64,000 nucleotides of DNA from positions 2,232,001 through 2,296,000 of the forward strand of contig NZ_VIVR01000001.1 in assembly GCF_007828955.1 (NCBI RefSeq), written 5' to 3'. The stretch comes from Kitasatospora atroaurantiaca. Its GTDB lineage: Bacteria > Actinomycetota > Actinomycetes > Streptomycetales > Streptomycetaceae. The notes under the pieces were generated by a model. The model saw only the letters and a program-made list of their open reading frames with translations. It ran no database searches and was not told where the DNA came from. The translations under genes were made by a program, and so were the position numbers. Each line of letters opens with the position of its first letter. The stretch's first letter is position 1. Positions 4,432-18,335 of the stretch are shown here, piece by piece.

Positions 4432-4438
4432 GGGGGGC

Positions 4439-5348: not shown

Positions 5349-5471
5349 TCCGCTGTACGGCGGACGCGAACGGACCCCCGTGCGCTCAACAACAGAACGG
5401 CCCCGGTCGGGCTCTGACACACCGACCGGGGCCAGCCCACCCTCCAGCCAGCAAGCAAGAGAGGGCAGACC

Positions 5472-5699
5472 ATGCCCGATCGTATCCAGCAGGACCCTGA
5501 CCGGGGCAGCATCCCGGCCGGACCCAGCCCCCTCCCGGCGCGCGCCCCCGGCGCGCTCTACCCGGGCAACTCCACGTGCCGCCGCCCGGCTGCGACCACC
5601 CGCCGCCCCCAGCTCTCCCGGCCGACGCGGCCGTTCGGAGCGCCGGACCTCGGCATCGACATCATCGCGTCCAACCCCACGGACGGAGATGACCAGTGA
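5472..5699 (+). CDS. Small hypothetical protein (75 aa)
   Basis: 75 aa, Pro/Arg-rich and of low complexity (PAGPSPLPARAPG), with no recognised domain. The ATG follows a GAGAGGGCAG ribosome site, and its stop overlaps the GTG of the next gene (GTGA). First plus-strand gene after the palindromic promoter. Probably translated; function unknown. Confidence 0.5.
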   Translation: MPDRIQQDPDRGSIPAGPSPLPARAPGALYPGNSTCRRPAATTRRPQLSRPTRPFGAPDLGIDIIASNPTDGDDQ

Positions 5700-5938
5700 G
5701 CGACTGGGACAACGAGCGGTGGCTGCCGAAGCTCCCAGGCCAGCGCAAGGGCCCGCCGCCCCCACCGCCCGCGCCCGAGCCCACAGAGGACCGGGCCTGG
5801 TGCCGCGGCTGCCACTTCGACTTCCCGTTCAGCGAGCTGCGCGAATGCGCCGAGCGCCTGCTGTGCGGCGACTGCGCCGAAGCGGACGACCAGAAGGCCG
5901 ACCATCGGCTCACCCAGCAGCTGGCGTACGCCGCCTGA
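5696..5938 (+). CDS. Small zinc-ribbon-like protein (80 aa)
   Basis: 80 aa with a proline stretch at residues 18-28, then WCRGCHFDFPFSEL and LLCGDC, a CxxC...CxxC pattern consistent with a zinc ribbon. No enzymatic motif. It starts with a GTG overlapping the stop of the previous gene, so it is coupled to it. It stands just upstream of the membrane-protein run; small zinc-ribbon genes are common in such elements. Confidence 0.6.
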   Translation: MSDWDNERWLPKLPGQRKGPPPPPPAPEPTEDRAWCRGCHFDFPFSELRECAERLLCGDCAEADDQKADHRLTQQLAYAA

Positions 5939-6037
5939 CGCTCCCCCTCAGACCGGCCGGGGCGGCCATCCCCTCACCGCCCCGGCCTCCACCGGTGTGC
6001 CCGCACGCCCCCACCACGCCCTCGGAAGGCTCATCTC

Positions 6038-7153
6038 GTGAAGCGCATCGTCTGGTGGCTGGCCATGGCCATCATCGCGCCCGCCGCCGCAGGCATCACC
6101 GCCTGGTCCCTGTACTACGTCGCCATGTTCTTCGGCGTGCCCCAGTGGCTGGCCGTGACCACCGCCCTGGTCTACGACGGCGTCGCCCTGGGCTGCCTCT
6201 ACCTTGCGAGCGAGGCGGTCAGGGCCGCGCTGTCCGCGGCCGGCCCGCTGGCCGCGACTTTCGTCATGGCCGGGATCTCCGTCTACCTCAACGTGTTCCA
6301 CGCCCAGCTGATCCACGGCGGCACGCCCGCCGCGCTTTTCTTCGCGACCCCGACGTTCGGCCTCCTGGTCCTGTCGCACCTCGCCTGGTCCGGCACCCGC
6401 AACCGGGCGAGGGCCGCCCGCGGCGACACCCCGCTTCGGTTGCCGGCCTACGGCGTGCTGACCTGGCTCCTCGCTCACGAGCACGCCGGGAAGGCGCTGA
6501 AGAAGAGCGCCGAGGAGCGTGTCACCGGCGCGTCATCCATGGCTCCCGCCGTTGCACCGCGCCGCACCGCCCGCGAGGTACTGGTCGAGAAGTTCGCCTC
6601 CCTTGACCCAGTCGACGCCGTCCAGCTGCTGGCTGGCGCGAACCCGCACCTGGATCCCGCAGAGCTGGCCGAGCTCGCGCAGCAGTATGGCAAGCAGATG
6701 ACCGCAACGGATGTGGCGCTCATCCTCGGCGGGGAGCGCATCACCGTGCAGCGCGTCGCCGTGCCTGCCCCGCGGCCGGCACCGGCCGCAGCGGTACAGC
6801 CCTCCGTTGTGCCGCCCGCGCCGCAGCTCCCGCCTCCGCCTGCGGCGACACCGCCCATGCCTCTCGCGCCACCCGCCCCGGTACCCGCCGCACCCGCGCC
6901 GCAGGGCGCAGCGGCAGGCCAGGGCCTCGCCAAGGCCGAGCTGGTGCGCCAGACCGCCGCGCTGCTCGGCCACGGGGCGACGGCGCGCATCATCGCTGAG
7001 GCCGTCATGGCACAGCACGGCATCGCCGCCGACGCCTCGTACGTCCGCACGGTGCAGGCCCGTGACCGCAAGGCCGCGGCGAAGCAGGCCACGAAGGAGC
7101 CCCTGCCGGTGCAGGACCCGCTGATCGGCAAGGGCCGGAACGGCTACCTGTGA
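6038..7153 (+). CDS. DUF2637-type membrane protein with C-terminal HTH-like region (Spd-like)
   Basis: 371 aa. Four hydrophobic segments fill residues about 5-125 (for example WLAMAIIAPAAAGITAW and LAATFVMAGISVYL), matching DUF2637 proteins of Streptomyces plasmids and conjugative elements. A soluble region follows (about 160-240), a Pro/Ala linker (about 245-305), and a C-terminal segment (LVRQTAALLGHGATARIIAE) that looks like a helix-turn-helix. In related elements the neighbouring membrane proteins serve plasmid spread between hyphal compartments; that role is inferred here. The next small gene overlaps its stop (TGATG). Confidence 0.65.
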   Translation: MKRIVWWLAMAIIAPAAAGITAWSLYYVAMFFGVPQWLAVTTALVYDGVALGCLYLASEAVRAALSAAGPLAATFVMAGISVYLNVFHAQLIHGGTPAALFFATPTFGLLVLSHLAWSGTRNRARAARGDTPLRLPAYGVLTWLLAHEHAGKALKKSAEERVTGASSMAPAVAPRRTAREVLVEKFASLDPVDAVQLLAGANPHLDPAELAELAQQYGKQMTATDVALILGGERITVQRVAVPAPRPAPAAAVQPSVVPPAPQLPPPPAATPPMPLAPPAPVPAAPAPQGAAAGQGLAKAELVRQTAALLGHGATARIIAEAVMAQHGIAADASYVRTVQARDRKAAAKQATKEPLPVQDPLIGKGRNGYL

Positions 7154-7260
7154 TGCGGATCGTCGAGGTGCTCTGCCAGCTGCTCTACCCGGTCTCCGCC
7201 GCCGGTGCGGCGTATGCGCTGCGCCACGTGCCACGCGCCCGCCGCCCGTACTCGCCCTGA
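7153..7260 (+). CDS. Micro-protein (35 aa), coupled
   Basis: A 35-codon frame starts at the ATG overlapping the DUF2637 gene's stop (TGATG) and ends at a TGA at 7258-7260. The peptide begins MRIVEVLCQLLYPVSAAGAA and has a short hydrophobic stretch, then an Arg-rich tail. Only the coupled start and its position between membrane-protein genes support it. Possibly a Spd-like small membrane peptide. Confidence 0.4.
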   Translation: MRIVEVLCQLLYPVSAAGAAYALRHVPRARRPYSP

Positions 7261-7290
7261 TCCGACCCTCCTCCCCGAAGGCGCACCGCC

Positions 7291-8097
7291 GTGACCGACC
7301 TGCTGCCCGCTGTCCCTGACGCCCAACCGATCGAGCCGTCAGCCGTCATCCCCGGACCACCCGCCGTCCCGCACAAGTCCATCGCCGAGCCGGTCCTGCT
7401 GGTCTCGGCTCGGACCGTCGACGACCTGACCCAGGTCCCCGATCTGACCGTCGCCCCAGAACCGGAGTGGGAGCAGCGCGACAGGAACCGGCGCGTTCGC
7501 GAGCGCAGCTGGCCGCGGTGGGCGCTGACTGATGACGAGCCTCCGCCCGAGCCCCGGCCGCAGGGGCCGAAGCCCGAGCCCGCAGCGCACGACAAGACCC
7601 GGCGCGCCCGTCGGCAGCGCCGCATCCGAGTCGCACGCGTCGCTGAGAGCACGCCCGAGGCGCCCGCCTGCCCCGAGGAAATCGCAGAGCCGCCAGTGGA
7701 GGAGCCTTCCGAGCCCCAAGGTCGAGAGCGCCGGTTCAGCCTGTACCCCCGGCGCCGCCGGCTCAGCGCACCCGACCACCGGACCAGGCGGCAACGACGG
7801 AGCGACCGCCTCAAGAACCTGGCCACCCTGAGCCTCGGGGCCGGCATCGGCTGGCAGTGCTACCTCGGGCCGGCCTACACGGGGATCATCCACACCATCG
7901 GGCAGGCCAGTCCCAAGTGGGCTGTCGGTTTCGGCCTGGTGATGGTTTTCGGGGGCCTGGTCATCGACGACAACCTCCGCCAGGGCGTGAGCGTCGGAGA
8001 CGCCACCGTCCTCGGCCTCGCCTACATCACCGTGGCCCGGGTCCCTCTGGGCACTGCCCTCCTCGCCCTGGCTCTCTATGCCCCCGGCACCCTCTGA
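7291..8097 (+). CDS. Spd-like membrane protein with long charged N-terminus
   Basis: 268 aa. Residues 1-165 are charged and Pro/Glu/Arg-rich with no recognisable fold. The C-terminal 100 residues contain about three hydrophobic segments (LSLGAGIGWQCYLGPAY, AVGFGLVMVFGGLVI, VPLGTALLALALYAP). This cytoplasmic-tail-plus-membrane design recurs in SpdB-type proteins of Streptomyces elements. It precedes two further membrane genes in the same direction, so it is probably part of one complex. Function inferred from context only. Confidence 0.55.
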   Translation: MTDLLPAVPDAQPIEPSAVIPGPPAVPHKSIAEPVLLVSARTVDDLTQVPDLTVAPEPEWEQRDRNRRVRERSWPRWALTDDEPPPEPRPQGPKPEPAAHDKTRRARRQRRIRVARVAESTPEAPACPEEIAEPPVEEPSEPQGRERRFSLYPRRRRLSAPDHRTRRQRRSDRLKNLATLSLGAGIGWQCYLGPAYTGIIHTIGQASPKWAVGFGLVMVFGGLVIDDNLRQGVSVGDATVLGLAYITVARVPLGTALLALALYAPGTL

Positions 8098-8107
8098 GGA
8101 CCTCAGC

Positions 8108-8533
8108 ATGCAGACCGGACAGATCTTCGGAGTCATCGGCTCCGGGCTCGCCGCCCTGATCGCCACCACGGTGCTGATCCTCGGGTGCCGAGGCAAGGGC
8201 AACATCAGGTTCCATCAGGAAGGAGCCGCGATCACCGGCTACGTCGCCGGGTACTTCTACTCCATCGCGGCGACGTTCTGGAGCGGCGCTGCCGCCATCA
8301 CCGGCGGCGTCACGGCTGCTCTCACCGGCCCGGGCGGCGCGTTCGGCAACGGCGGCATGGGCGGCGTCGCCCTGCTCCTCGCCGTCATCGCGTACGGCGC
8401 CAAGCTCAAGCCCGGTCTGGCCGCAGTCCTCGGCGTCGCAGCGTTCACCGTCTTCCAGCAGGCCGGCGGGATCTGGGCGACACCGGCGGTCATCGTGGCC
8501 AGCATCTCCGGGAACCTGATGGGGGTGCACTGA
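8108..8533 (+). CDS. Small integral membrane protein (141 aa)
   Basis: 141 aa with three to four hydrophobic segments: VIGSGLAALIATTVLIL near the start, a Gly/Ala-rich region at about 45-80, and VALLLAVIAYGA and AVIVASISG-type stretches later. The layout suggests a small channel-like or scaffold membrane protein. The ATG at 8108 is preferred to an upstream ATG at 8078 that lies inside the previous gene. Its stop overlaps the next ATG (TGATG), so the two are coupled. No named family recognised. Confidence 0.6.
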   Translation: MQTGQIFGVIGSGLAALIATTVLILGCRGKGNIRFHQEGAAITGYVAGYFYSIAATFWSGAAAITGGVTAALTGPGGAFGNGGMGGVALLLAVIAYGAKLKPGLAAVLGVAAFTVFQQAGGIWATPAVIVASISGNLMGVH

Positions 8534-9201
8534 TGGCCTTCCTCGACAAGGTTGAGGGCCTCATCGACAAGGCCGAGCAGCAGCAGGGCAGCAGCGGGCG
8601 TGCCTTCGACCGGCCCGACCTCAAGCCGTATGTGCACCCGCGCGGCCTGCTCAGTGCGGTCGCGTCCGGCTCCGCCGCCCTCGCACGCCGCCTCTCCCGC
8701 AAGGAGGTCATCGCCAAGGCCGTCCGCCTCGCGCGGTCCGCGGGGATCGCCACCGTGCCCGGGGTGTGCTGCGCTCTGGCGCTGGGTGCCGGCGGCTGGC
8801 TGGTGCTGCACCGGTACATGTGGGCCATCGGGGGCGCTCTGGCGGCCGGGTGGGTGGTGCTCGCGCTGATGCACAGCCGACCGACGCCGGCCCGCGCCGA
8901 GGCGGAGCCGGCCACGGAGGAAGCCCCCGCCGAGGCTGTCCCGTCGGACCCCCACGCAGCGTTCCTCCAGCACCTCCGCCAGGCCATCGGGGACCGCCCC
9001 GGAATCCACCTCCGCGAGCTCGTCACCCGGCCCCCGCTGGAGCGCTGCACGATCGCCGACATCCGGGCCCTCTGCGAGTCCCACAGGATCCCCATCCGGG
9101 CCTCCCAGAAGGTGGGCGGAGATGTGTCAGTCGGCATCCGCCTGACTGACCTGCAGGCGCTCTCCCCCGAGGAGCCCCAGGAGACCCGTCGCGCCGGGTA
9201 G
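8533..9201 (+). CDS. Spd-like membrane protein with C-terminal winged-helix-like domain
   Basis: 222 aa. Two hydrophobic segments occur at about residues 72-92 and 98-115 (LALGAGGWLVLH, ALAAGWVVLALMH). The C-terminal domain (about 140-215) reads HLRQAIGDRPGIHLRELV and CTIADIRALCESHRIPIR, like the winged-helix tails of element-encoded SpdB2-type proteins. The start overlaps the upstream stop. It is the last gene of the four-gene membrane cluster 6038-9201. Likely acts with the others at the membrane; nothing shows the exact role. Confidence 0.6.
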   Translation: MAFLDKVEGLIDKAEQQQGSSGRAFDRPDLKPYVHPRGLLSAVASGSAALARRLSRKEVIAKAVRLARSAGIATVPGVCCALALGAGGWLVLHRYMWAIGGALAAGWVVLALMHSRPTPARAEAEPATEEAPAEAVPSDPHAAFLQHLRQAIGDRPGIHLRELVTRPPLERCTIADIRALCESHRIPIRASQKVGGDVSVGIRLTDLQALSPEEPQETRRAG

Positions 9202-9329
9202 TTCTGATTCTGACCTGCGAAAACCACCTCCCGACTACCTTCCAACTACCTCACTGAGCTACCCGCCCGGCAACGCCCGTCGCCCCGACTTCCCGGCGCG
9301 GGGCGCATCACCACGAGAGGATGATCCGC

Positions 9330-9704
9330 ATGACCAGGCTCACCGTTCCCACCACGACCGTCCAGCCGATGCGGCTGTCGCAGCTGCGGTCCGCACCGGC
9401 GCCGGCTGTCCAGGAGCCGGCCGCCACCCGGGCGCTGCTCGCCCATGTCCGCACCACCCTGATGCCCGCCCCGCGAGGAGGAGGTTCGGCGATGGCCGAA
9501 GAGATCGTGCGTGTCCGTGTCCTGCTGGTGGTCGGTGACCAGGCGGAGATCGTTGCCGACGTGGAGGACCCGGCCGCGCCCGAGCGGTATCCGGCGGCGG
9601 TGATCGCCGAGGCGGTCGGCGTCTCAGTGGCCGATCTGCCGGGTCGGCGGCTGCTGGCCGAGGTCGGCCGGGACGACCGGCTCTCCGGGTGGCGGCTGGC
9701 GTGA
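9330..9704 (+). CDS. Small hypothetical protein with a strong internal start
   Basis: 124 aa from the ATG at 9330, chosen because GAGAGG (9315-9320) is well spaced from it and abuts the upstream ATG at 9321. A second ATG at 9492 follows a CGAGGAGGAGG site and would give a 70-aa protein beginning MAEEIVRVRVLLVVGD. The conserved-looking part of the sequence lies after that internal start, so the shorter form may be the main product. No family recognised. A terminator follows at 9711. Confidence 0.5.
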   Translation: MTRLTVPTTTVQPMRLSQLRSAPAPAVQEPAATRALLAHVRTTLMPAPRGGGSAMAEEIVRVRVLLVVGDQAEIVADVEDPAAPERYPAAVIAEAVGVSVADLPGRRLLAEVGRDDRLSGWRLA

Positions 9705-9710
9705 CGTCAG

Positions 9711-9743
9711 GAGCCCGGACCCGTAGGTGGGTTCGGGCTCTTT
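9711..9743 (+). terminator. Rho-independent-like terminator
   Basis: Twelve-nt arms 9711-9722 and 9729-9740 with one G-T mismatch are followed by TTT. Just after the stop at 9704. Confidence 0.7.
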
Positions 9744-9758
9744 CATCCACATTAAGTG

Positions 9759-9787
9759 TTGCCTTTGCACTGCACCACTGCTAAGCT
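9759..9787 (+). promoter_or_regulatory. Candidate vegetative promoter
   Basis: TTGCCT (9759-9764), a 17-bp spacer and TAAGCT (9782-9787) lie about 70 bases before the ATG at 9855, after the terminator of the preceding gene. The region is locally AT-richer than its surroundings. Confidence 0.5.
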
Positions 9788-9854
9788 GGAGACACAGAGG
9801 ACAAGGGGCCGCGAACCCCGACTCCTCACAACCCACTCCAGAAAGGCGGAGACC

Positions 9855-10223
9855 ATGTCCGACGAGAACGAGCGCTTCCTCCACGACCTGATGATCCACA
9901 TCGCGGTCGTCTTCGAGGCCCTGCGCACCGCCTGCGCCCACCTCCCGGTGCCCATCGCCCTCGCGGACGACCTCGACACCGACGTCACGGCCACCCTCAT
10001 GGCCGTCACCCGGGTCATCGAGATCTCCGACGAGCAGCCGATGCCGGAGCTCCGCCAGGCGCAGCTCTGCACCGGCGCCCTCCACTGGATCGCCGCCGTC
10101 GACCTCGCGGCCCTCGGCGCGCACATGGAGGGTGACATCCGGCTCCTCGCCTCGCGGATCAACCTCCACCACGCGGAGACCGCGCTCCTCGACCTCGCGT
10201 TCTGGCTCGCCGAGACCGAGTAG
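9855..10223 (+). CDS. Hypothetical all-helical protein (122 aa)
   Basis: 122 aa, predicted mostly helical with many hydrophobic heptads (LHDLMIHIAVVFEALRTA, ALHWIAAVDLAALGAH, ALLDLAFWLAE). No membrane-length segment, signal or metal motif. The ATG at 9855 follows AAAGGCGGAG, and the gene has its own promoter-like boxes and terminator (10232-10258), so it is probably a monocistronic unit. It resembles small helical proteins common in streptomycete accessory DNA; function unknown. Confidence 0.6.
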   Translation: MSDENERFLHDLMIHIAVVFEALRTACAHLPVPIALADDLDTDVTATLMAVTRVIEISDEQPMPELRQAQLCTGALHWIAAVDLAALGAHMEGDIRLLASRINLHHAETALLDLAFWLAETE

Positions 10224-10231
10224 CACCCAAC

Positions 10232-10258
10232 GAGGCCCCGGCACCCAGCCGGGGCCTC
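10232..10258 (+). terminator. Strong GC hairpin terminator
   Basis: GAGGCCCCGG / CCGGGGCCTC arms (10232-10241, 10249-10258) around a 7-nt loop, directly after the stop at 10223. Confidence 0.75.
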
Positions 10259-10281
10259 CCCCATCCCCCAGAAACACAACA

Positions 10282-10339
10282 GACCGGCGGGGCCGAGCCG
10301 AAGCTCTCACCCAAGGGGTGTCGCGAAACCCCGCCGGTC
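10282..10339 (+). promoter_or_regulatory. Nested stem-loop leader before the HTH gene
   Basis: An 11-bp perfect outer stem (10282-10292 with 10329-10339) encloses a 36-nt loop. The loop holds a second small hairpin, CACCC AAG GGGTG, near 10309-10321. It ends 28 bases before the ATG of the HTH gene. It could be a terminator, an operator or a leader RNA. Confidence 0.4.
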
Positions 10340-10367
10340 ACAACCCGCCCAGAAGGGCAGGAACACC

Positions 10368-10772
10368 ATGGTAGAACAACCGGCCGAGGGCGAGACCGTC
10401 GAAGAGATCGCCGCCCGCTACGACGTCCACCGAACCACCGTGCAGAAGAACTGGACCCGCCACCCCGACTGGCCCCAGCCCACAGGCAAACGCGGCCGCT
10501 GGCTCGTCTACGACCCCGCCGCCGTCGACACCTGGCACGACACCCGCAACACCAGACCACCCGCCGGGCTGCTCCCCGGTCGGCAGTACACCGCCATCGA
10601 GATCGAGGCCGCCACCGGCTTCACCTCCGCGAACATCCGTGCCGCCCTGTCCAAGGGCACCTGGCCACCCCCGGAGGGCAAAAGCAGCCGCGCCAACACC
10701 TGGTCCGGCGCTACCGTCGAAACCGCCATTGCAGCTCGCCGCAGCTATCGCAAGGCCGACCCGAGCGACTGA
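10368..10772 (+). CDS. Small DNA-binding protein with two HTH-like repeats
   Basis: 134 aa. Residues 9-25 (ETVEEIAARYDVHRTTVQK) form a clear helix-turn-helix followed by a wing-like WLVYDPAAVDTW. The second half (YTAIEIEAATGFTSANIRAAL) repeats the pattern, ending VETAIAARRSYR. Such double MerR/AlpA-like folds occur in excisionases and small regulators of mobile elements. The gene has its own structured leader. It could control or process the element, but no recombinase partner is visible here. Confidence 0.6.
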   Translation: MVEQPAEGETVEEIAARYDVHRTTVQKNWTRHPDWPQPTGKRGRWLVYDPAAVDTWHDTRNTRPPAGLLPGRQYTAIEIEAATGFTSANIRAALSKGTWPPPEGKSSRANTWSGATVETAIAARRSYRKADPSD

Positions 10773-10807
10773 GCGACCGTGCATATCGACAGGCCAGAGG
10801 AACAAGC

Positions 10808-11671
10808 GTGTCCAAACCCAAGAAGCTGTGCATCTTCTGCGGCCAGGCCAGCCCCATATCCCAGGAGCACCTCTGGTCAGAATGGATAGCCGGCCACACG
10901 ACCGCCCGATCACCGCTGCGAACTACCCAGGAGCACGGGTTCACACATCGAGCCCCGGGCACGGTCACGGTCGACCCGGCGACCACCCGCCACAGCAAGC
11001 AGCCACTGCTCAACCTGCGTGTTCGAGAGGTCTGCAGGTCCTGCAACACGGGGTGGATGAGCCGCCTCGACGCGCACGTGAAGCCGATCATCCTGGGCAT
11101 GATGCGCAGCGAGCCTTGCCTTCTTGATCCTCTTCAAGCAACCGACCTTGCGACCTGGACGGTGATGAAGAGCTTCGTCAACGAGTTCGCCGGCCGACCG
11201 GGCGACGACCCGACGCCGCGTCCCGCATCCACTCCGGAGATGCGGCGCTATGTCATGGAACATCAGACGCCACCCCCGCTCAGCCTCGTATGGGCCGGGC
11301 ACGGCCATCACACGGGCGACCTTCACCTGCACATCGCTGCGGCCAGGCTGCACATCGTGACGTCCGCGGAAGCGACGGAAGAGATCTCTGGCACGATGAC
11401 GAGCTTCACTGTCGAGCACCTGACACTCCTTGCATGGACAGTTGACCGCCGGGAGCCAACCCCACCGGTCCTGCCGCACGCCACATGGCCGATGCTCTGG
11501 CCCGCACCCGCCGCAGTCCGCTGGCCTTCTGTGACCCGGCTCACGGACAGAGAGATTGCCGCACCGGTCGCGCAACACAACCGCCGGTACCCAGTGCTTC
11601 CATTCCACCTGATCAGTCAGCGTGATAACCCGGCGCGCGAGAGATCAGCCGACGGGTTGGCTTCCCCGTGA
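10808..11671 (+). CDS. HNH/treble-clef zinc-finger-like protein
   Basis: 287 aa. The N-terminus has CIFCG (residues 8-12), then SQEHLWSEWI, and later VCRSCNTGWMSRLD. The CxxC...EH...CxxCN order is that of treble-clef HNH-like proteins, some of which are nucleases. The EH...CN arrangement could provide the catalytic His and metal site, but the rest of the protein has no recognised domain. The GTG start follows a GAGGAACAAG site. The gene stands alone just upstream of the Ro/Y-RNA locus, and no toxin, methylase or immunity partner is adjacent. An anti-phage role is possible but unproven. Confidence 0.55.
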   Translation: MSKPKKLCIFCGQASPISQEHLWSEWIAGHTTARSPLRTTQEHGFTHRAPGTVTVDPATTRHSKQPLLNLRVREVCRSCNTGWMSRLDAHVKPIILGMMRSEPCLLDPLQATDLATWTVMKSFVNEFAGRPGDDPTPRPASTPEMRRYVMEHQTPPPLSLVWAGHGHHTGDLHLHIAAARLHIVTSAEATEEISGTMTSFTVEHLTLLAWTVDRREPTPPVLPHATWPMLWPAPAAVRWPSVTRLTDREIAAPVAQHNRRYPVLPFHLISQRDNPARERSADGLASP

Positions 11672-11773
11672 CCCGAACGAAGGCAGTCAGCTGACCTGAC
11701 GGGATGCCACACCTGTGGTATTCCCGCGATATCAAGTAGAACCGCGCCACCGTCAGCCGCTACCTTCGGAGTT

Positions 11774-11909
11774 GTCCAGGTGCGCAGGCCGGGGTTACTT
11801 CCTCTTGTAAAGGCGTGACCCGGGTTCGAATCCCGGCCGCCGGTTCGTCCGGCGGTAGCTCAGCGGCCCAGAGCGCGTACGTTGCCTCAGCCGACCTCGA
11901 TCTCTGGAC
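11774..11909 (+). ncRNA. Y-RNA-like RNA 1 with permuted tRNA-like module
   Basis: A terminal stem GTCCAG/CTGGAC closes 136 nt. The conserved segment GTGCGCAGG follows the 5' strand, and GATCT precedes the 3' strand. Inside are a T-arm (CCGGG-TTCGAAT-CCCGG, 11820-11836), the acceptor 3' strand CCGCCGG, a 5-nt loop, the matching acceptor 5' strand CCGGCGG (11849-11855), then TA and a D-arm (GCTC...GAGC). This is tRNA order cut at the anticodon side and joined at the acceptor end. Bacterial Y RNAs (YrlA) next to Ro genes are known to mimic tRNA in this way. Boundaries are read from the stem only. Confidence 0.8.
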
Positions 11910-11929
11910 TCACAACTTCATGCGTTGCA

Positions 11930-12002
11930 CCTCCCGGTGCGCAGGGCCACGGCTACTTCTTTGGAAAAGTTCACGCCGCAGTCCGCTTCTGATCTCGGGA
12001 GG
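11930..12002 (+). ncRNA. Y-RNA-like RNA 2, short form without tRNA-like module
   Basis: A perfect 7-bp stem CCTCCCG/CGGGAGG (11930-11936, 11996-12002) encloses the same 5' block GTGCGCAGG...GGCTACTTC and the 3' GATCT found in its two neighbours. It has no T-arm, acceptor or D-arm. The shared blocks next to the closing stem make it a third, minimal Y-RNA-like unit, probably only the Ro-binding part. It could alternatively be a decayed copy. Confidence 0.6.
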
Positions 12003-12012
12003 CCACAGCATC

Positions 12013-12162
12013 GGGGCGCCCGGTGCGCAGGCAGCGGATACTTCATGGGAAACTGACGGTCACGGGTTCGAATCCCGTCCGGCCAGCAACGTCTGGCCGG
12101 TAGCTCAGCCTGGTAGAGCATCAGTACGAAACACCGCCGCCGACTCCGATCTCGGGCGTCCC
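12013..12162 (+). ncRNA. Y-RNA-like RNA 3 with permuted tRNA-like module
   Basis: A 10-bp closing stem (12013-12022 with 12153-12162, one G-U) encloses GTGCGCAGG...GGATACTTC on the 5' side and GATCT on the 3' side. The tRNA-like part has a T-arm ACGGG-TTCGAAT-CCCGT (12062-12078), acceptor 3' strand CCGGCCA, an 8-nt loop, acceptor 5' strand TGGCCGG (12094-12100), TA, and a D-arm GCTC-AGCCTGGTA-GAGC. All stems pair perfectly. It ends 12 nt before a terminator hairpin that leads into the Ro gene. Confidence 0.8.
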
Positions 12163-12174
12163 ACTGCTGAGCCT

Positions 12175-12199
12175 CCCCTCCTTCGCGAGGGGTTTTCCT
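12175..12199 (+). terminator. Intrinsic terminator of the Y-RNA unit overlapping the Ro ribosome site
   Basis: CCCCTC/GAGGGG arms (12175-12180, 12187-12192) are followed by TTTTCCTT. The 3' arm GAGGGG is also the only good ribosome-binding site for the Ro start at 12200, seven bases away. Confidence 0.65.
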
Positions 12200-13819
12200 T
12201 TGTCCCGCTTCAATACCCGCACCGCCCGCGCATCCGGCACCTCGCCCGTGACCACCACCGGGCAGACCACCCGCACCCACGAGGGCGCGACCGGACACCT
12301 CCGCGACGACAAGTCGGAGCTCTTCCTCCTCGCCGTGTCCCACAAGGTCACGACCGACACCTTCTACGAGAACGCCAGCGACCGCGACGACCGGTACCAG
12401 CGGCTCGTCCGCAAGCTCGCCGCCGAGGACCCGGCATGGACCTCCGCCTTCCTCAGCTGGCTGCGCACCGCGGGAAACATGCGGACCGCCGCCCTCGTCG
12501 GCGCCGCCGAGTTCACCGCCGAGCGCCGCCTGCGCAAGCTCGACGGCTACTCCCGCCAGGTCATCGCCTCCGTGCTCCAGCGCCCTGACGAGCCCGGCGA
12601 GTTCCTCGCCTACTGGACCAGCCACTACGGCCGCAACATCCCGCAGCCCGTCAAGCGCGGCATCGAGGACGCCCTCGGCCGTCTCTACACCGAGCGCGCC
12701 CTGCTGAAGTACGACACCGACAGCAAGGGCTACCGGTTCGGCGACGTCATCGAGCTGACCCATCCCTCGCCCTCCGCCGTCTGGCAGGGCGACCTGTTCA
12801 AGCACGCCATCGACCGGCGGCACGGCCGCGGCGACGACATCCCCGAGTCCCTGCAGGTCCTCCAGACCCGCGCGTTCCTGATGACCATGCCCGTCGGCGA
12901 GCGCCGCTCGTTCCTCGCCCTGCCCAACGCGCCCACGGTGCTGAAGGACGCGGGCATGACCTGGGAAGCCGTGGCCGGCTGGCTGCAGGGCCCGATGGAC
13001 GCAGTCGCGTGGGAGGCCGTCATCCCGTCAATGGGCCTGATGGCTCTCGTCCGCAACCTCCGCAACTTCGACCAGGCCGGGGTCTCCGACGAGGTCGCCG
13101 AGCAGGTCGCCTCCCGGATCGCGGACCCGGCAGAGGTCGCCCGGTCCCGCATGTTCCCGTTCCGCTTCTGGGCCGGGTACAAGCACGTCCCGTCGCTGCG
13201 CTGGGGCCACGCCCTAGAGAAGGCCCTCACCGCGTCCCTGGCCAACGTGCCCGCTCTGCCCGGCCGCACCCTGATCCTCGTCGACCGGTCCCCGTCGATG
13301 TTCCCCGGCTACGGCTACTCCACGCCGAACCAGTCGGAGATCCCCCTCGCCGAGCAGGCCGCCGTGTTCGGGTCCGCCCTCGCGCTGCGCGCCGCCGCCC
13401 CGACGCTGGTCGAGTTCGGCGGCAAGAGCCGCGAGATCACGGTGCCGAAGGGCGGCAGCGTGCTGCGCCTCGTTGAGGCTTTCGGCCAGGACGGCGGCAC
13501 GGACATCCCGAAGGCCGTGAAGCAGCACTACGCGGGCCACGACCGGGTTGTCATCGTCACCGACGAGCAGACCCGGCCCGGCTACCTGCCGTCCAACATG
13601 CTCTCGTACGGCGGGATGCGCGAGACTGCGATCGACGACCTGATCCCCAAGCACGTCCCGGTCTACATGTGGAACATGGCGGGCTACAAGCCGGGCGCCA
13701 TGCCGTCCGGCATCGCGAACCGGCACACCCTGGGCGGGCTCAGCGACGTCGCGTTCGCCCTGATCCCGCTGCTCGACGCCGGCCGCAACGCGACCTGGCC
13801 GTGGGTGTCTGGTCGGTGA
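12200..13819 (+). CDS. rsr: Ro60 orthologue (TROVE + von Willebrand A domain)
   Basis: 539 aa, the normal length for bacterial Ro proteins. Ro forms a HEAT-repeat ring that binds Y RNAs on its outside and misfolded RNA ends in its hole, and in bacteria it works with exoribonucleases in RNA turnover and stress survival. The TROVE region spans about residues 20-330. The vWA domain follows, with the MIDAS motif VDRSPSMF near 360, GGTDIPKAV and VTDEQ. The TTG start at 12200 gives the usual MSRFNTRT N-terminus with GAGGGG seven bases upstream. Three Y-RNA-like genes lie immediately upstream. No RtcB or RNase gene is adjacent. Confidence 0.9.
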   Translation: MSRFNTRTARASGTSPVTTTGQTTRTHEGATGHLRDDKSELFLLAVSHKVTTDTFYENASDRDDRYQRLVRKLAAEDPAWTSAFLSWLRTAGNMRTAALVGAAEFTAERRLRKLDGYSRQVIASVLQRPDEPGEFLAYWTSHYGRNIPQPVKRGIEDALGRLYTERALLKYDTDSKGYRFGDVIELTHPSPSAVWQGDLFKHAIDRRHGRGDDIPESLQVLQTRAFLMTMPVGERRSFLALPNAPTVLKDAGMTWEAVAGWLQGPMDAVAWEAVIPSMGLMALVRNLRNFDQAGVSDEVAEQVASRIADPAEVARSRMFPFRFWAGYKHVPSLRWGHALEKALTASLANVPALPGRTLILVDRSPSMFPGYGYSTPNQSEIPLAEQAAVFGSALALRAAAPTLVEFGGKSREITVPKGGSVLRLVEAFGQDGGTDIPKAVKQHYAGHDRVVIVTDEQTRPGYLPSNMLSYGGMRETAIDDLIPKHVPVYMWNMAGYKPGAMPSGIANRHTLGGLSDVAFALIPLLDAGRNATWPWVSGR

Positions 13820-13837
13820 TCTGCTGACCAACCCTGG

Positions 13838-13867
13838 GGCGCCTCTGGAATCGCCTCCAGAGGCGCC
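13838..13867 (+). terminator. Terminator after the Ro gene
   Basis: Twelve-bp perfect arms 13838-13849 and 13856-13867 around a 6-nt loop. It lies between the Ro stop and the convergent gene ending at 13881, so it may serve both. Confidence 0.7.
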
Positions 13868-13880
13868 TCATTCTTGGCTC

Positions 13881-14519
13881 CTATCGCCAGGGGCGGTGCC
13901 ACCTCCACACCTGCCACCAGGGGACAGTTGGCGTGGCGACGACTTCCGCACCTCGCGAATCGAGGTACTGCCTCGCCGAATCCAGATAGGCGCTCAGCGC
14001 CGTGTTGCTCGCAGCGCTTGACGCTTCGAAAGCTGCGCGGTGCAGAGCAGGGTCGATGCCCGGCGTGATCCTCCGGAGAGAGTTCCGCCACTCTGTGCAC
14101 TGGCGGCTCGCGTCGACGACCTTCAGGAGCGCAGTCCGTGCTCGCTCGCTCTCGTTCCCCGGTAGGGCAAGTCTCACCGCTGCCCAGGCCTCCATGCCCT
14201 CCATCAACAGCTCATCGGTCCTGGGGTTTTCGATGCTTCGCAGGCCTGCCGCCCTCTCCTCGGGACGCAGTGCCGCGACTACCGCGAGAGCGACACCTTC
14301 TCGCATCACCTGTTTGCTCAGGCGATCGAGAACCCCGGCATAGGTCACCAGTGCTGCCTGGCGTCGAGCCCACATCGCGTCGTCGCGGGCGCTCGCCACC
14401 TGCATTCGCATTGCCTCGACTTGACCGCGAGCCTGTGTGGCTGCGCCGGAGCGCGCTGCGTAGCCGCCGACAACCGCGCCGCCCAGACCGATGATCGCGC
14501 CAACTATCTGTGGATCCAC
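13881..14519 (-). CDS. Membrane-anchored hypothetical protein (212 aa)
   Basis: 212 aa. An N-terminal hydrophobic helix (IVGAIIGLGGAVVGGYAA) could anchor it. A coiled-coil-like stretch follows (about 28-60), then a helical body and a Trp-rich end (PWWQVWRWHRPW). No named family. It is transcribed toward the Ro gene and away from the prophage late genes, so it may belong to neither. A prophage-encoded exclusion protein at the edge of the late operon would fit the design, but nothing proves it. Confidence 0.5.
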   Translation of the reverse strand: MDPQIVGAIIGLGGAVVGGYAARSGAATQARGQVEAMRMQVASARDDAMWARRQAALVTYAGVLDRLSKQVMREGVALAVVAALRPEERAAGLRSIENPRTDELLMEGMEAWAAVRLALPGNESERARTALLKVVDASRQCTEWRNSLRRITPGIDPALHRAAFEASSAASNTALSAYLDSARQYLDSRGAEVVATPTVPWWQVWRWHRPWR

Positions 14520-14654
14520 CCGCGCAGTGTGGCACGCGTCGAGTCCGAGCGCAGTTTCCAGCCCCGAGGATCCCTCGTGCTCCCATGGGGCTGCCTACTT
14601 GGGCCGGGTACCCCTCCACCCGGCACCGCATCACCGTGCCCACCGGAGGAACTC

Positions 14655-15101
14655 ATGGCCGACCTCTGCTTCAACGTGGCCCTCGGCCGCCTCGCCTACT
14701 ATGCATCCCTTCCCGCCGCGAACGACGCCCTCATCGCCATCCCGTATGCCGCCTCCGGCCTCCCCTCGGACGCGACCCTGCGGGACTGCGCAACCGTCGC
14801 TGCGATCGCATCCGCAGGCGCCACCGAGCAGACCACCCTCGGCCGCAAGACCCTCAGCAGTGTCACCGTCACCGTCAACAACACGAACGACCGCGTTGAG
14901 CTCGACGCCGCTGACCTCTCCTGGACCGCCACGGCCGGAGCCGCAATCGCCGCGGTGGTCATCTGCTATGACCCCGACAGCACCGGCGGCGTCGACGCCG
15001 ACCTCGTCCCCCTCACGAAGCACGACGTCACGATGACGCCCGACGGCACCAACCTCTCACTGACGATCTCGGACTTCTGCCGCATCACCTCCGCCGCCTG
15101 A
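14655..15101 (+). CDS. Phage virion-associated protein (148 aa)
   Basis: 148 aa, Thr/Ala/Asp-rich with beta-strand-like segments (SVTVTVNNTNDRVELDAADLSW), the look of a phage surface or decoration protein. The ATG follows GGAGGA at 14645-14650. It is the first gene of the late operon and is followed 28 bases later by a larger virion-type gene. No enzymatic motif. Assigned from composition and position only. Confidence 0.5.
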   Translation: MADLCFNVALGRLAYYASLPAANDALIAIPYAASGLPSDATLRDCATVAAIASAGATEQTTLGRKTLSSVTVTVNNTNDRVELDAADLSWTATAGAAIAAVVICYDPDSTGGVDADLVPLTKHDVTMTPDGTNLSLTISDFCRITSAA

Positions 15102-15129
15102 CCGCCCTCCAGACCGAAGGGGGTGGCTG

Positions 15130-17178
15130 ATGGCGACCCGGTTCTGGCTGACCAACGCGGCAGCCCCCTACACACCCGCGACACGGCGCGGCGCCTGGGA
15201 CGTCGCCAGCGGCGAGGACGTGCAGCTGCTCGGCCGCAAGCCGCAGGGCTCGGCCGGCACGTCGTCCATCAACGTCGGCTCGACGTCCGCCGACCGGGAC
15301 GTCCTTCTCCACCGCTCGATCAGCGCCGGCGCGGTCAAGGCGGGCACGATCTCCGGCACGGTCGAGTGGACAATCGGCGTCAAGGAATCCAATGTCGACC
15401 TCAACGGCTTCTGGCACCTGCACGTCTACGTCACCAGCGGCGACACGGACACCCCGCGCGGCACCCTGCTGACTGACTACATCGGCAGCACGGAGTTCAC
15501 GACCACCGCGACCGGCATTGACCCGGGCGCCCAGACCGTCACCCCGGTCGCGATCCAGGTCGGCGACCGGATCGTCGTAGAGATCGGATACAGGGCGAAC
15601 GCCCTCGCAACGACGTACAACGCGACCGTCAACTACGGCAACACGGGTGGCACGGACCTTGCGGCCAGCGACACAGCGGTCACCACCGAGCCGGGCTGGG
15701 TGGAGTTCAGCGGCACCGACGGACTGTTCACCGCCGGATTCGGCACCCTCACCGACGCGTTCACCTCCTCGATCGATTCCAAGTGGACGAAGAGCGCTGG
15801 CGTCACGGCGACCGGCGGCCGTGCCCGGATCCCGACCACGACCACACTGGAGTCGCTGTACACCGCGACGGCGTACGAGATTCAGGGCACCAGCGCCGCC
15901 TTCCAGGTCCCGTCGGTCCCCGTGGCTGGGGGCGGCTCTGGGGTCAGCGTCGCCGCGTACTTGTCGGCCGGGCCGACGGTGTCCACGACCAACTTGGAGA
16001 TCGTCTACTCGCCGAACACGGGCAACTTGCAGTTCCGCAACAACGTCGGCGGATCCGACGCCTCCCCCACCAACATCACCTACGACTCCACCGCACACGC
16101 CTGGTGGCGCTTCCACGAAGCCGCCGGGTCCATCACCATGGACACCAGCCCCGACGGCGTCACCTGGACCACTAGGCGCACCATCAGCACCCTCACCCAA
16201 TGGATGCGCGTCGGCAACCAAATCCTCTACTTCGAATCCGTCCGGACGTCCGGCACCAACGACTTCGCCGAGATCGACAGCGTCAACGTCGTCGCTAACA
16301 CCACCATCGCGCTCAGCGCCGCGGGCAGCACCGAGACTGCTCAGCACCTGGCAGCCGCCAAGCAGCGCACCGCCGGGATCGCCGCTGGCATCGAGACGGC
16401 GCAGCGCCTCACCGGGGTGAAGCAGCGCACCGCCACCCTGGCCGCCGCCGTGGAGACCGCTCGGCACGTCGCCGGAACCAAGACTGCGGTCCTCGGCATC
16501 GCATACGCCACCGCCGCCACCCAGCACCCGGCCGCCGCCAAGACCCGGCAGCTCAACCCCGCCCAGGAACAAGCCTCCGCCGCCGGGCTCGTCGCCACCA
16601 AGACACGCGCCCTCTCCCCCGCCACAGCAACCGCGCAAGCCCAGCACCCCGCCGGCGCCAAACAGGCCCAGCTCGGCGCCGCCCGGCAGACCGCCACCAG
16701 CCAGACCCTCCTCACAGCCAAGACCCGATCGCTGGGCCGCGCCGCCGAGACGGAGAGCGCCCGCGTCCTGGCCGCTCCCGTCCCCGGCCTCACCCACGGC
16801 CTCGCCCTCACCGACCGCCCCGCAACCGCCTGGACCGCCAGCGCCGCCACCGCCGCCTGGGCCTGCACCGGAAGGACCGCCGCCGTGGACAGCCTCTCCA
16901 CCGAATACCTCGAAGTGGGCGTCACCTGGAGCCGTGGCGACCCCTCCACCTCCGCCGTGCAGATGGCCGTCGTGCCGCTCGGCCACGACCCGGCCGACAC
17001 CGACTGGCACACCGCGCAGTGGGACACCGATACGGCTGGACTCACAGTCGCCAAGCTTCTCGTTGGCCCCGACGGCGGGGCGCTGGCACCCACGCCCGGC
17101 CGCTACCGGGCGTGGGTGTCGATCGACGCCCCACCCGAGCACCCGGTGCTGTCCACTCCGCCATACGACATCAGCTGA
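15130..17178 (+). CDS. Large phage virion protein: lectin-like domain plus 20-residue repeats
   Basis: 682 aa. Residues about 1-195 are beta-rich (GTVEWTIGVKESNVDLNGFW). Residues about 200-395 resemble a concanavalin/laminin-G fold (AWWRFHEAAGSITMDTSPDG, with an unusually clear strand pattern). Residues 397-550 are seven to eight tandem 20-residue Ala/Thr/Lys-rich repeats of the type ETAxxLxxxKxRxxxLA. A C-terminal beta domain follows. The lectin-like fold suggests surface binding, for example a head fibre or receptor-contact protein. It sits upstream of the terminase genes, an unusual place for a tail fibre. Confidence 0.6.
   Translation: MATRFWLTNAAAPYTPATRRGAWDVASGEDVQLLGRKPQGSAGTSSINVGSTSADRDVLLHRSISAGAVKAGTISGTVEWTIGVKESNVDLNGFWHLHVYVTSGDTDTPRGTLLTDYIGSTEFTTTATGIDPGAQTVTPVAIQVGDRIVVEIGYRANALATTYNATVNYGNTGGTDLAASDTAVTTEPGWVEFSGTDGLFTAGFGTLTDAFTSSIDSKWTKSAGVTATGGRARIPTTTTLESLYTATAYEIQGTSAAFQVPSVPVAGGGSGVSVAAYLSAGPTVSTTNLEIVYSPNTGNLQFRNNVGGSDASPTNITYDSTAHAWWRFHEAAGSITMDTSPDGVTWTTRRTISTLTQWMRVGNQILYFESVRTSGTNDFAEIDSVNVVANTTIALSAAGSTETAQHLAAAKQRTAGIAAGIETAQRLTGVKQRTATLAAAVETARHVAGTKTAVLGIAYATAATQHPAAAKTRQLNPAQEQASAAGLVATKTRALSPATATAQAQHPAGAKQAQLGAARQTATSQTLLTAKTRSLGRAAETESARVLAAPVPGLTHGLALTDRPATAWTASAATAAWACTGRTAAVDSLSTEYLEVGVTWSRGDPSTSAVQMAVVPLGHDPADTDWHTAQWDTDTAGLTVAKLLVGPDGGALAPTPGRYRAWVSIDAPPEHPVLSTPPYDIS
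16318..16780 (+). repeat. Tandem 60-bp (20-residue) coding repeats
   Basis: Seven to eight diverged in-frame units of 20 codons, each ending near (K/R)xxxLxxA, within the virion protein at 15130. Divergence is high at the DNA level, so the array is old rather than a recent expansion. Confidence 0.6.
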
Positions 17179-17187
17179 GGAGCCAGG

Positions 17188-17355
17188 ATGGCCAGGAAGC
17201 AGCACACCGGATTCGTCAGTCGCGCGCAGTGGCGGCTCTTCTGGGCCTCCAAGAAGCTCCGACGATATGCGCACGACAAGGCCGTCGCGACTCCCGGCGG
17301 CCCCGTTGTCCGGTACCGGCGGCTCCCGGGCCGCAAGGGCGTCCGCCGCCGCTGA
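17188..17355 (+). CDS. Small basic phage protein (55 aa)
   Basis: 55 aa starting MARKQHTGFVSRAQWRLFWA, very rich in Arg and Lys, with a GAGGAGCCAGG ribosome site. Short proteins with a similar FVSRAQWRLF opening sit just before terminase genes in actinophages, as far as I recall; their function is unknown. A DNA-binding or head-assembly role would suit the charge. No metal ligands or HTH are seen. Confidence 0.6.
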   Translation: MARKQHTGFVSRAQWRLFWASKKLRRYAHDKAVATPGGPVVRYRRLPGRKGVRRR

Positions 17356-17416
17356 CGTTCGCAGCCTCCCGCTCCCCCCAGGCGATCATCTGCCCTGATC
17401 CGAGGGGAGCCCCGCC

Positions 17417-17878
17417 ATGCCCATCAGCCGCGCCAAGACAGCCGACATCCGCGACCGCCGTACCCGCCTCATCCGCATGAGGATCGCCGGCATCCCGTTC
17501 AAGGAGATCGCCGACGACCCGGCGTTCGACTACAAGGGAAGCGTCGGCAACGCGAAGAAGGACTTCACGCGCGCCATGCGCGAGACCGCCGCCGAGGAGA
17601 AGGAAGCCGCCGACACCTACCGGCAGCTGATGCTGGAGCGCCTCGACCACTATCTCGCCGCGCTCTCCGACCGGATCGATGCCGGTGAGCCGCGGGCCAT
17701 CGAGGTCGCCCTGCAGGTCGAGACGCAGCGCGCGAAGGTCACGGGCGCCTACGAGCCCGAGCGCATCGAGGCGACCGTCACGACGGTCAGCCCGGTGGAC
17801 GTGGAGCTCCGTGAGATGGTCAACGAGGCGAAGGCGCGGGTCGCCGCCGAGGAAGCCGCACTGCGAGGTGGGGCGTGA
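17417..17878 (+). CDS. Terminase small subunit-like protein
   Basis: 153 aa. The N-terminal half is a helix-turn-helix (LIRMRIAGIPFKEIADDPAF) of the kind that recognises pac/cos DNA. A long charged helix (ETAAEEKEAADTYRQLMLERL) for oligomer assembly follows, then a C-terminal tail that would contact the large subunit. The position just before the large terminase supports the call; sequence conservation of small terminases is always weak. Its stop overlaps the next start (GTGA). Confidence 0.65.
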   Translation: MPISRAKTADIRDRRTRLIRMRIAGIPFKEIADDPAFDYKGSVGNAKKDFTRAMRETAAEEKEAADTYRQLMLERLDHYLAALSDRIDAGEPRAIEVALQVETQRAKVTGAYEPERIEATVTTVSPVDVELREMVNEAKARVAAEEAALRGGA

Positions 17879-18333
17879 GCACGAGCCGGTACTTCTTCGA
17901 CTCCCTGGTGCCGTCCTGGCTGGGGGCCGATCCGGGCTACCGGGCCGCGCTGGGCCAGCACCTGCTGGGCCTGATGGCGCTGCAGGAGTACGAGCCGGTG
18001 TCCGAGCCCGCCGTGAGCGTCGCGCCGTGCGACATCGACCCACCGCCCGGGACGGTGCTGCTGCGAGTCGAGGTCCTGGTGGAGGAGTTCGACCTCGACA
18101 TGGGCGATGAGGAGCCCGTGGGGCAGTGGCTGGCCGAGCAGACCGATGAGCGCACCGTGCACTGCGTTCCGCTCGACGACGCCGTGTCCCACGACCTGAC
18201 CGACGACTGCCCGTGCGGGCCCCGATCCAGGCCCGAGGAGTGCCGAGACGGGAGCACGGGCTGGGTCGTCATCCACCATTCCCTCGACGGCCGCGAGTTG
18301 ACCGAGCCCGACCACGGCGCGTCCCCGGAGTAG
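17875..18333 (+). CDS. Hypothetical phage protein (152 aa)
   Basis: 152 aa, acidic, with a Cys-containing stretch CPCGPRSRPEEC near residues 104-115. It starts with a GTG overlapping the small-terminase stop and ends two bases before the GTG of the large terminase, so the three are tightly coupled. No recognised family. It could be an accessory packaging protein. Confidence 0.5.
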   Translation: MSTSRYFFDSLVPSWLGADPGYRAALGQHLLGLMALQEYEPVSEPAVSVAPCDIDPPPGTVLLRVEVLVEEFDLDMGDEEPVGQWLAEQTDERTVHCVPLDDAVSHDLTDDCPCGPRSRPEECRDGSTGWVVIHHSLDGRELTEPDHGASPE

Positions 18334-18335
18334 CC

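Follow-up and report, generated by a model that had tools for sequence, protein, structure and literature searches.

Bacterial Ro proteins are tethered to PNPase by a Y RNA, and the resulting complex degrades structured RNA (PMC8394870, PMC4726728, PMC8058203; papers given by PMC number are cited throughout from the excerpts available). In the Y RNA known as YrlA, the basal stem binds the Ro protein Rsr and the tRNA-like domain binds PNPase (PMC8394870), and the working model in these excerpts is that of one Y RNA tethering Ro to one nuclease (PMC8394870, PMC8058203). Members of the corresponding Rfam family, RF02553, have a basal stem formed from both ends of the RNA, a permuted upper domain (T-arm, acceptor stem, D-arm) and an adjoining Ro gene. 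Here we describe a Ro locus of Kitasatospora atroaurantiaca (Streptomycetaceae), located in a stretch of 64,000 nucleotides (nt), hereafter the window, that covers positions 2232001-2296000 of the 7.87 Mb chromosome. A Ro60/TROVE gene (12200-13819, forward strand; coordinates refer to the window unless stated otherwise) is preceded there by three structured units, 11774-11909, 11930-12002 and 12013-12162. We read the locus as a prophage-borne Ro ribonucleoprotein (RNP) locus, in which modular Y RNAs would serve as tethers next to a tether-less RNA, and assign this reading a probability of about 0.82.

Anatomy of the three units

The array is confirmed as a genuine feature of the locus, and we consider it very probable that its units are Y RNAs. 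Unit 1 (11774-11909) and unit 3 (12013-12162) are YrlA-like with a permuted tRNA-like module, while unit 2 (11930-12002) is a short Y RNA of 73 nt without such a module; all three are on the forward strand. The 5' closing strands read GTCCAG in unit 1, CCTCCCG in unit 2 and GCGCCCG in unit 3, and each is directly followed by GTGCGCAGG. TACTTC is common to the three units, and GATCT stands directly before each 3' closing strand. The original prediction, made from the letters of this stretch, had described shared motifs beside the closing strands together with TACTTC and GATCT, and every one of these features was found in the sequence.

The modules were located by a script from the T-arm and the D-arm start only, and the pairing of the acceptor strands was not used. 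In unit 1 a T-stem CCGGG/CCCGG with the loop TTCGAAT is followed by the acceptor CCGCCGG-(TTCGT)-CCGGCGG, TA and GCTC, and in unit 3 a T-stem ACGGG/CCCGT is followed by the acceptor CCGGCCA-(GCAACGTC)-TGGCCGG, again with TA and GCTC. The D-arms start at about 11858 in unit 1 and 12103 in unit 3, i.e., downstream of the T-arm. Both acceptor stems pair in 7 of 7 positions and are closed by loops of 5 and 8 nt, so the predicted module order and perfect 7-bp stems were borne out. Among relatives, 61 of 71 distinct modules pair at 6-7 of 7 acceptor positions, compared to 11.8 on average and 20 at most with shuffled partners; the closing loop is most commonly 5 nt long (range 3-25 nt). At the anticodon-stem position, in a register that leaves 5 nt for the variable loop and one for position 26, 79 of 102 modules pair at 4-5 of 5 positions (shuffled control: mean 24.6, maximum 35). 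Other registers gave 74 (4-nt loop, no gap), 56 (6 and 2) and 0-19 for the remaining nine, a pattern as expected of one continuous stem, and in unit 3 of the window this position is paired 5/5. By its pairing, the module is an inside-out tRNA, with the Ro scaffold occupying the place of the anticodon loop.

Covariation in homologues

Alignments were prepared for unit 1 (A1, 49 rows), the short form of unit 2 (A2, 21 rows), full unit 3 (A3, 33 rows) and the long form of unit 2 (A4, 29 rows). Locus L064 and unit 1 candidates outside 140-156 nt were left out of A1, L099 was left out of A2, and one predicted pair of A4 was omitted from the covariation count. A further alignment, A5, comprised 28 hand-picked short units. 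The folds of A1 to A4 were closely alike: an outer helix whose 3' strand bears a bulged base, TGCG facing GATC, an inner stem and TACTTC. Changes on both sides of a pair were found in 6 of 30 pairs and 25 cells of A1 (values reached by 4 and 0 of 500 shuffles, respectively), in 9 of 32 pairs of A3 and in 7 of 24 pairs of A4 (0/500 shuffles in both), and in just 1 of 15 pairs of A2. The number of further standard pair types in A4 was reached by 2 of 500 shuffles. Helix 1 cells were paired in 97.5% of cases in A1 and in 99.2% in A3, where the ends had been chosen by pairing. When the 3' strand of the end helix was instead located by the first downstream GATC, 38 of 101 distinct pairs of strands matched at 6-7 of 7 positions, compared to a shuffled mean of 10.3 and maximum of 19; this count is independent of pairing, and a wrong GATC would dilute it. 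In the diverse short units of A5, 6 of 8 outer-helix pairs had changed on both sides and 91.8% of cells were paired vs 73.7% in shuffles (0/500), a result which, like the invariance of the unit 2 helix, is partly built in, as ends were mostly chosen by pairing or rows by letters. The innermost outer-helix pair failed in 13 of the 28. Support for the structure of the units is, in other words, comparative. The original prediction had made its case depend on covariation in homologues, and covariation was found for the scaffold as well as for the modules when set against shuffle controls. Together with the same order of units at a second Ro locus of this genome (see below), it backs the predicted three-RNA Ro locus with two permuted tRNA-like modules, which we regard as supported.

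Covariance model searches

The Rfam search covered 3 kb of the window (10500-13500). Unit 3 matched the YrlA model RF02553 with 54.8 bits (E = 6.1e-11) and unit 1 with 27.7 bits (E = 0.004); for unit 2 no match at E <= 1 and no T-arm were found. The suggestion that a YrlA model would recover the units therefore held for units 1 and 3, both below the gathering score of 69 bits, and not for unit 2. Units 1 and 3 are YrlA-like and belong to a divergent actinobacterial group, not to RF02553 by Rfam's own rule, and unit 2 is a Y RNA scaffold without a module, which we do not class as YrlA. The Rfam match begins and ends within the window unit, leaving most of the end helix outside. Anywhere in the genome, no RF02553 match rose over the cut-off. 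Two YrlA matches, at 2440646 and 3837662 of the genome, were rejected as Y RNAs because they overlap tandem tRNA pairs.

Two models of our own, R1 and R2, were applied to the whole genome, with 150 candidates scored for each. R2 was built from unit 1 sequences only, and scored window unit 1, a row of the model, at 122 bits; R1, whose training includes window unit 2, scored that unit at 78 bits. R2 found unit 3 at 88 bits (E 1.4e-18), which is the sole independent find in the window, since the rows of units 1 and 2 sit in the training of R2 and R1. Genome-wide, R1 and R2 together yielded three units at both of two Ro loci, six in total; the only other hit was an R2 match at a tandem tRNA-Gly pair, and neither model found units away from the two Ro loci. 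A weak YrlA match of 32.6 bits lies at 6646546-6646650 of the chromosome (L012 247-351), far from Ro and without a tRNA call; it was not repeated by R1 or R2.

Several observations weigh against our reading. Firstly, the Rfam scores of units 1 and 3 are both below the gathering score, and the same Rfam model also matches the ordinary tandem tRNA pairs mentioned above. Secondly, ARAGORN calls tRNA-Thr at 11777-11844 and tRNA-Met at 12017-12087, each a part of unit 1 or unit 3; the anticodon-stem position of window unit 1 is paired at just 1/5; and units 1 and 3, folded to minimum energy, form the acceptor hairpin and not the T-arm. Thirdly, single-sequence folding of units 1, 2 and 3 is only mildly better than that of shuffles (z -1.7, -1.2 and -2.0), and the numbers of further standard pair types in units 1 and 3 lie near those of shuffles (41/500 and 85/500). 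The end-helix evidence is partly circular, as the ends of unit 3 and the scanned units were picked by pairing and the rows of A1, A2 and A4 were found by patterns fixing most end-helix letters; in A2 and A4 the eight outer pairs of this helix are invariant and hence uninformative. Lastly, the promoter-like hexamer described below is absent in 34 of 124 loci, and the number of units differs between relatives, so that three are not essential.

Putative promoter and leader of the array

A -10-like hexamer, TACCTT (11761-11766, forward strand), lies upstream of unit 1 and is a putative promoter element of the array. Of 124 distinct bacterial Ro loci (phages left out), 90 have TANNNT in the 22 nt before the first unit, with about 1.4 expected from the local background; 62 loci share one distance, and TACCTT of the window sits at the same distance. 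A scan with the sigma-70 consensus found no promoter at the window locus. A second conserved block, TTCGGATGC or similar, is seen upstream of unit 1 in Streptomycetaceae loci, and in 34 loci TTCG starts 29 nt before the hexamer. Since this upstream block is unlike TTGACA, transcription may depend on an unusual sigma factor or on an activator. Short spacers in three-unit loci (unit 1-2 median 23 nt, range 11-103; unit 2-3 median 9 nt, range 4-103) leave little room for further promoters, and the simplest reading is a single transcript that would be processed later.

The hairpin CCCCTC-CTTCGC-GAGGGG followed by TTTT (12175-12192, forward strand) is a terminator-like site that overlaps the likely ribosome-binding site of Ro, and in many related Ro leaders GCCTCC precedes a G-rich ribosome-binding site. 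Both observations, as well as the position of the units upstream of Ro and in the same direction, would suit the array being a structured 5' leader that controls Ro expression, and not a set of separate RNAs. The end helix of unit 2 (CACCTCCC/GGGAGG) also resembles the anti-ribosome-binding site of 16S rRNA. A ribosome-binding-site switch was nevertheless rejected, as pairing was found in 110 of 117 leaders vs 92.5 expected from shuffled leaders, which is not clearly above composition. Moreover, the full unit of locus L146 from Streptomyces piniterrae (42-180, E 1.9e-27) ends about 2.3 kb upstream of Ro, and in phage Atuin an R2 match lies downstream of Ro (L114 4550-4694, 5.9e-11). A control leader is on these grounds improbable, and we keep to separate Y RNAs. 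The full unit of S. piniterrae (R2 125 bits) stands 2.0 kb before a short-full pair, as a split array.

The short unit 2

Unit 2 shares the outer helix and the TGCG, TACTTC and GATC elements with the other units. In 80 of 84 Streptomycetaceae loci, CCTCCCGGTG lies ahead of Ro, and CCTCCCG is carried by 73 of the 95 units of at most 120 nt that were not scored full. The end helix of unit 2, CCTCCCGG/CTCGGGAGG, is nearly unchanged in Streptomycetaceae, whereas the helices of the other units covary; CACCTCC is identical to the anti-ribosome-binding site of 16S rRNA. Across the 55 bacterial loci with three units (phages left out), the module was scored full at position 1 in 48, at position 2 in 3 and at position 3 in 34 cases, by a crude rule which 15 further position-3 units fail in spite of having a T-arm. 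The long form of unit 2 (A4) has a T-arm in 19 of 29 rows, directly after a covarying hairpin and with no D-arm, which makes it a further module type.

The content of position 2 thus varies from none (A2) to a hairpin or a hairpin with T-arm (A4), as would be expected if unit 2 were a decayed Y RNA that had lost its module and was kept by chance. The presence of CCTCCCGGTG in nearly all Streptomycetaceae loci stands against decay, and so does a count over the 140 loci with any unit, 113 of which have one or more units scored module-less. That unit 2 is a relic is also unlikely because a short unit stands alone in the divergent Ro group: the scan found exactly one unit per locus in 11 of 11 loci, ten of them scored module-less and one otherwise (L102, scored 't' via a chance TTCGA; L106 is truncated at the contig end, and in L096 the second motif is degenerate). 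Several loci of this group show promoter-like sequence before the lone short unit. We therefore give decay only a slender chance, and treat unit 2 as a Y RNA in its own right.

Mimics of tRNA or tRNA genes

Units 1 and 3 could in principle be circularly permuted tRNA genes whose products are cut and joined to give functional tRNAs, and the order of the arms as well as the pairing at the anticodon-stem position (79/102) would match. Here, the anticodon loop is replaced by the two conserved halves, 5' and 3', of the Ro scaffold, the loop closing the acceptor stem is short, and window unit 1 lacks the anticodon stem, which together make such genes hardly credible. Ordinary prophage tRNA genes (Thr, Met), which is what the ARAGORN calls would have the two units be, are just as implausible, as RF00005 (tRNA) gave no match at E <= 1 in 10500-13500, where YrlA did match, the true D-arms follow the T-arm and fall outside the calls, and a loop of 5 or 8 nt closes the acceptor stem. 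The same confusion is seen in phage records, where tRNA labels stand directly upstream of Ro in Alone3 (tRNA-Ser, L112 2178-2251), Frankenweenie (tRNA-Pro, L111 2155-2245) and VanLee (tRNA-Arg, L113 2204-2275). None of these three places had an RF00005 match at E <= 0.01, and YrlA or R2 matches overlap all of them, which speaks against tRNA genes there, too. Annotation pipelines may mislabel units 1 and 3 as tRNA-Thr and tRNA-Met in the way ARAGORN does. The models R1 and R2, in turn, flag Y RNA genes which are below Rfam's threshold or called tRNAs in phage records.

The Ro60 protein

The gene downstream of the units (12200-13819, forward strand, TTG start) encodes a Ro60/Rsr orthologue with TROVE and vWFA domains. 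The Ro60 gene of the original prediction was confirmed by a Pfam TROVE match with E 3.7e-14 and 53.2 bits, above the curated cut-off of 23. An AlphaFold2 model based on 21 sequences (pLDDT, the predicted local distance difference test, 80.7) resembled Rsr of Deinococcus radiodurans (2nvo; Foldseek E 1.5e-12, VIA Z 22.6 over 448 residues) and human Ro60 (9nen, Z 22.9 over 447 residues), and structure 1yvp matched with Z 18.8 over 462 residues. The next structures matched 145-172 residues, mostly vWFA-type domains, with Z <= 13.7. The window Ro is accordingly modelled as a helical ring plus a vWFA fold. D362, S364 and S366 were invariant in two protein alignments (A6, 19 rows; A7, 21 rows) and represent a DxSxS motif of the metal ion-dependent adhesion site type. 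H188 was invariant in the 19 rows and conserved in at least 90% of the 21 rows. By our own reading, it may be the equivalent of the histidine with which Ro60 contacts Y RNA (PMC4030889). In the Ro tree the window protein grouped with that of L117 (support 100/98), within a clade of 21 rows and apart from the host's own Ro (L009). The window Ro is thus not a recent copy of the host Ro, while the deeper order of the tree is uncertain owing to long phage branches.

Distribution of Ro loci and unit numbers

The same chromosome holds a second Ro locus, the host's own (L009), with the same full-short-full order of units. Near it (L009 793-1623) lies a Methyltransf_4 gene (PF02390, 1.2e-41), which we take to be TrmB, the tRNA m7G46 methyltransferase. 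Within the genus set, 59 of 70 genomes had a Ro match (some as fragments), and so had 118 of 197 in the order set and 8 of 296 in the phylum set, where 7 of the 8 are in the same family, the present genome being counted.

Units were scanned for by motif plus closing helix, the closing being decided by pairing. Upstream of Ro the scan found 335 units in 145 loci, compared to 77 in 725 dinucleotide shuffles, and it overlooks some units that the eye can pick out, among them unit 1 of L059 and L068 and most units of phages L111 and L113. The sets counted overlap in part, L117-L145 are the best-scoring loci of the order set, and L107 and L108, with a broken Ro, were left out. Among the 55 main-clade loci of the Kitasatospora set, 37 had three units, 15 two, 2 four and 1 one. 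The 20 order-set loci L126-L145 had three units in 13 cases and two in 7, and the nine window-like loci L117-L125 three units in 1 case, two in 6 and one in 2. In the 40 named loci there were three units in 4, two in 21, one in 12 and none in 3. A second copy of unit 1 gives four units in two Kitasatospora-set loci (L076, oriented 583-730; L088, oriented 579-722). Comparison with other streptomycete Ro loci, which the original prediction had proposed, shows that arrays recur and that three units are commonplace in the lineage. Its view of three Y RNAs as an unusually rich set does not hold for these loci, with three units in 37 of 55 main-clade loci and up to six in viral loci.

Prophage context and viral relatives

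The Ro locus is borne by a prophage, a setting which had not been recognised in the first reading of the sequence. IMG/VR lists a provirus (UViG 2818991273_000004, 51,167 bp) that extends over 4627-55793, with ends computed from the contig range and no strand assigned, and the IMG/VR locus L241 is letter-for-letter identical to 6200-19816 of the window. All on the forward strand are genes for the terminase large subunit (18213-19886; phrog_38, 3.9e-64), the portal protein (19963-21537; phrog_104, 1.8e-58, and SPP1_portal, 5.8e-10), the major head protein (23608-24525; phrog_10, 1.3e-24) and the tape measure protein (28390-31836; phrog_6090, 5.9e-104). The distance from the Ro locus to the terminase gene downstream of it is 4.4 kb. 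Regions 1-9000 and 46000-64000 share no exact direct repeat, and hence no attachment repeat, of more than 15 nt, so that the ends given are provisional, and no integrase was found among the window proteins scanned, which were a part of the open reading frames.

Ro is carried by two other prophages, L194 (terminase phrog_2, portal phrog_2662) and L201 (terminase phrog_19179 and phrog_9, and a portal of the window's family phrog_104 with 23% identity), where it stands 3.6 and 4.7 kb upstream of the terminase, respectively. In the three prophages together Ro is found 3.6 to 4.7 kb upstream of terminases of differing families, as if this were a favoured cargo site. Homologues of the window phage proteins were not found in Ro loci with short flanks, and in 20 kb around 11 Ro loci there were three non-Ro matches to them (L193, L194, L201). 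Five proteins from L193, L198, L199 and L202 gave no packaging or tail family.

After removal of L246 and L270, which have less than 700 nt upstream, and of redundant loci (46 to 44 to 33), 33 IMG/VR loci remained. At least three units were found in 20 of these, at least four in 11, up to six in all, and none in two, with a shuffled mean of 0.10 units. In eight actinobacteriophage loci, taken from the 68 records with a Ro match, the scan counted 2 to 5 units each (shuffled mean 0.2). In four of these eight phages, pSt2308, BRock, Alone3 and Atuin (L109, L110, L112, L114), Ro lies inside a tRNA gene cluster.

Proposed mode of action

From the structure of the units, which is supported, we infer transcription, processing, Ro binding, PNPase tethering and the role of unit 2 as follows. 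The conserved promoter directly upstream of unit 1 probably drives one RNA that would yield three Y RNAs. Their common basal scaffold consists of a 7-bp end helix with a bulged U, the TGCG/GATC internal loop, an inner stem and TACTTC, and Ro should bind the basal stem, judging by the known behaviour of bacterial Y RNAs. In units 1 and 3 the inside-out tRNA replaces the upper loop, with a short loop closing the acceptor stem, and by analogy its tRNA-like surface could tether PNPase or pose as tRNA. Unit 2 would stabilise or gate Ro without recruiting a tethered partner, and Ro would be present as a mixture of RNPs with differing attachments. For such a division of labour between tethers and tether-less RNA we see even odds.

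A tRNA-like domain could also inhibit a tRNA-cutting nuclease (PMC7790460), and the phage contexts may make this idea worth testing. Broader still, and rather doubtful, is a view of Ro in actinobacteria and their phages as a chassis with interchangeable RNA attachments, a kit which phages and prophages would take up, often among tRNA genes, so as to protect or spare tRNA while they infect. Each array of one to six co-transcribed Y RNAs would then combine a fixed Ro-binding scaffold with a permuted tRNA, a hairpin with T-arm, a plain hairpin or no module at all, the tRNA-like module acting as a decoy or adaptor against tRNA-cutting host defences and the module-less RNA being the ring's ground state. 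Whatever the function, one Ro locus holding RNAs with and without the tethering module in conserved order offers a natural control for separating Ro binding from tethering, and host and prophage arrays in one Kitasatospora-type chromosome make exchange or competition of two Ro systems testable in one cell.

Comparison with known systems

Among the literature matches listed, there was no paper on Y RNAs of Streptomyces or Kitasatospora. The Salmonella operon rsr-yrlBA-rtcBA resembles the present locus in that its Ro gene is accompanied by more than one Y RNA (PMC7790460). It differs in that the Y RNA genes, by the name of the operon, lie between rsr and rtcBA and are under RtcR control, as far as the excerpts of that paper go, whereas here the units precede Ro; rtcBA was not found among the locus proteins examined, which were a part of them. 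RYPER, the Ro/Y RNA/PNPase complex of Deinococcus radiodurans, is alike in the fold of its Ro orthologue (2nvo, Z 22.6) and in the expected mode of action, and unlike in that PNPase tethering at the window locus is assumed by analogy (PMC4726728, PMC8058203). Compared to YrlA of Rfam, units 1 and 3 of the window score below threshold and stand in tandem with a module-less unit.

On the viral side, Ro proteins are annotated in actinobacteriophages as they are here, and the Ro60 structure of Thermus phage phiLo (9l5y) is among those closest to the model of the window Ro. Three noncoding regions of Listeria phage CKA15, all of them highly transcribed, lie within 2 kb of a putative Rsr gene (PMC12282133), and we liken them to the window array as putative phage Y RNAs near Ro; the anatomy of an array and the alternation of module-bearing and short units are not part of the description of CKA15 or phage Ro in the excerpts at hand. 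Arrays of one to six genes in related bacteria and phages suggest one protein fitted with several RNA attachments. The modular Y RNA array is thus of a known kind, a Y RNA beside Ro, and is widespread, and it is the array form that is carried here on a prophage.

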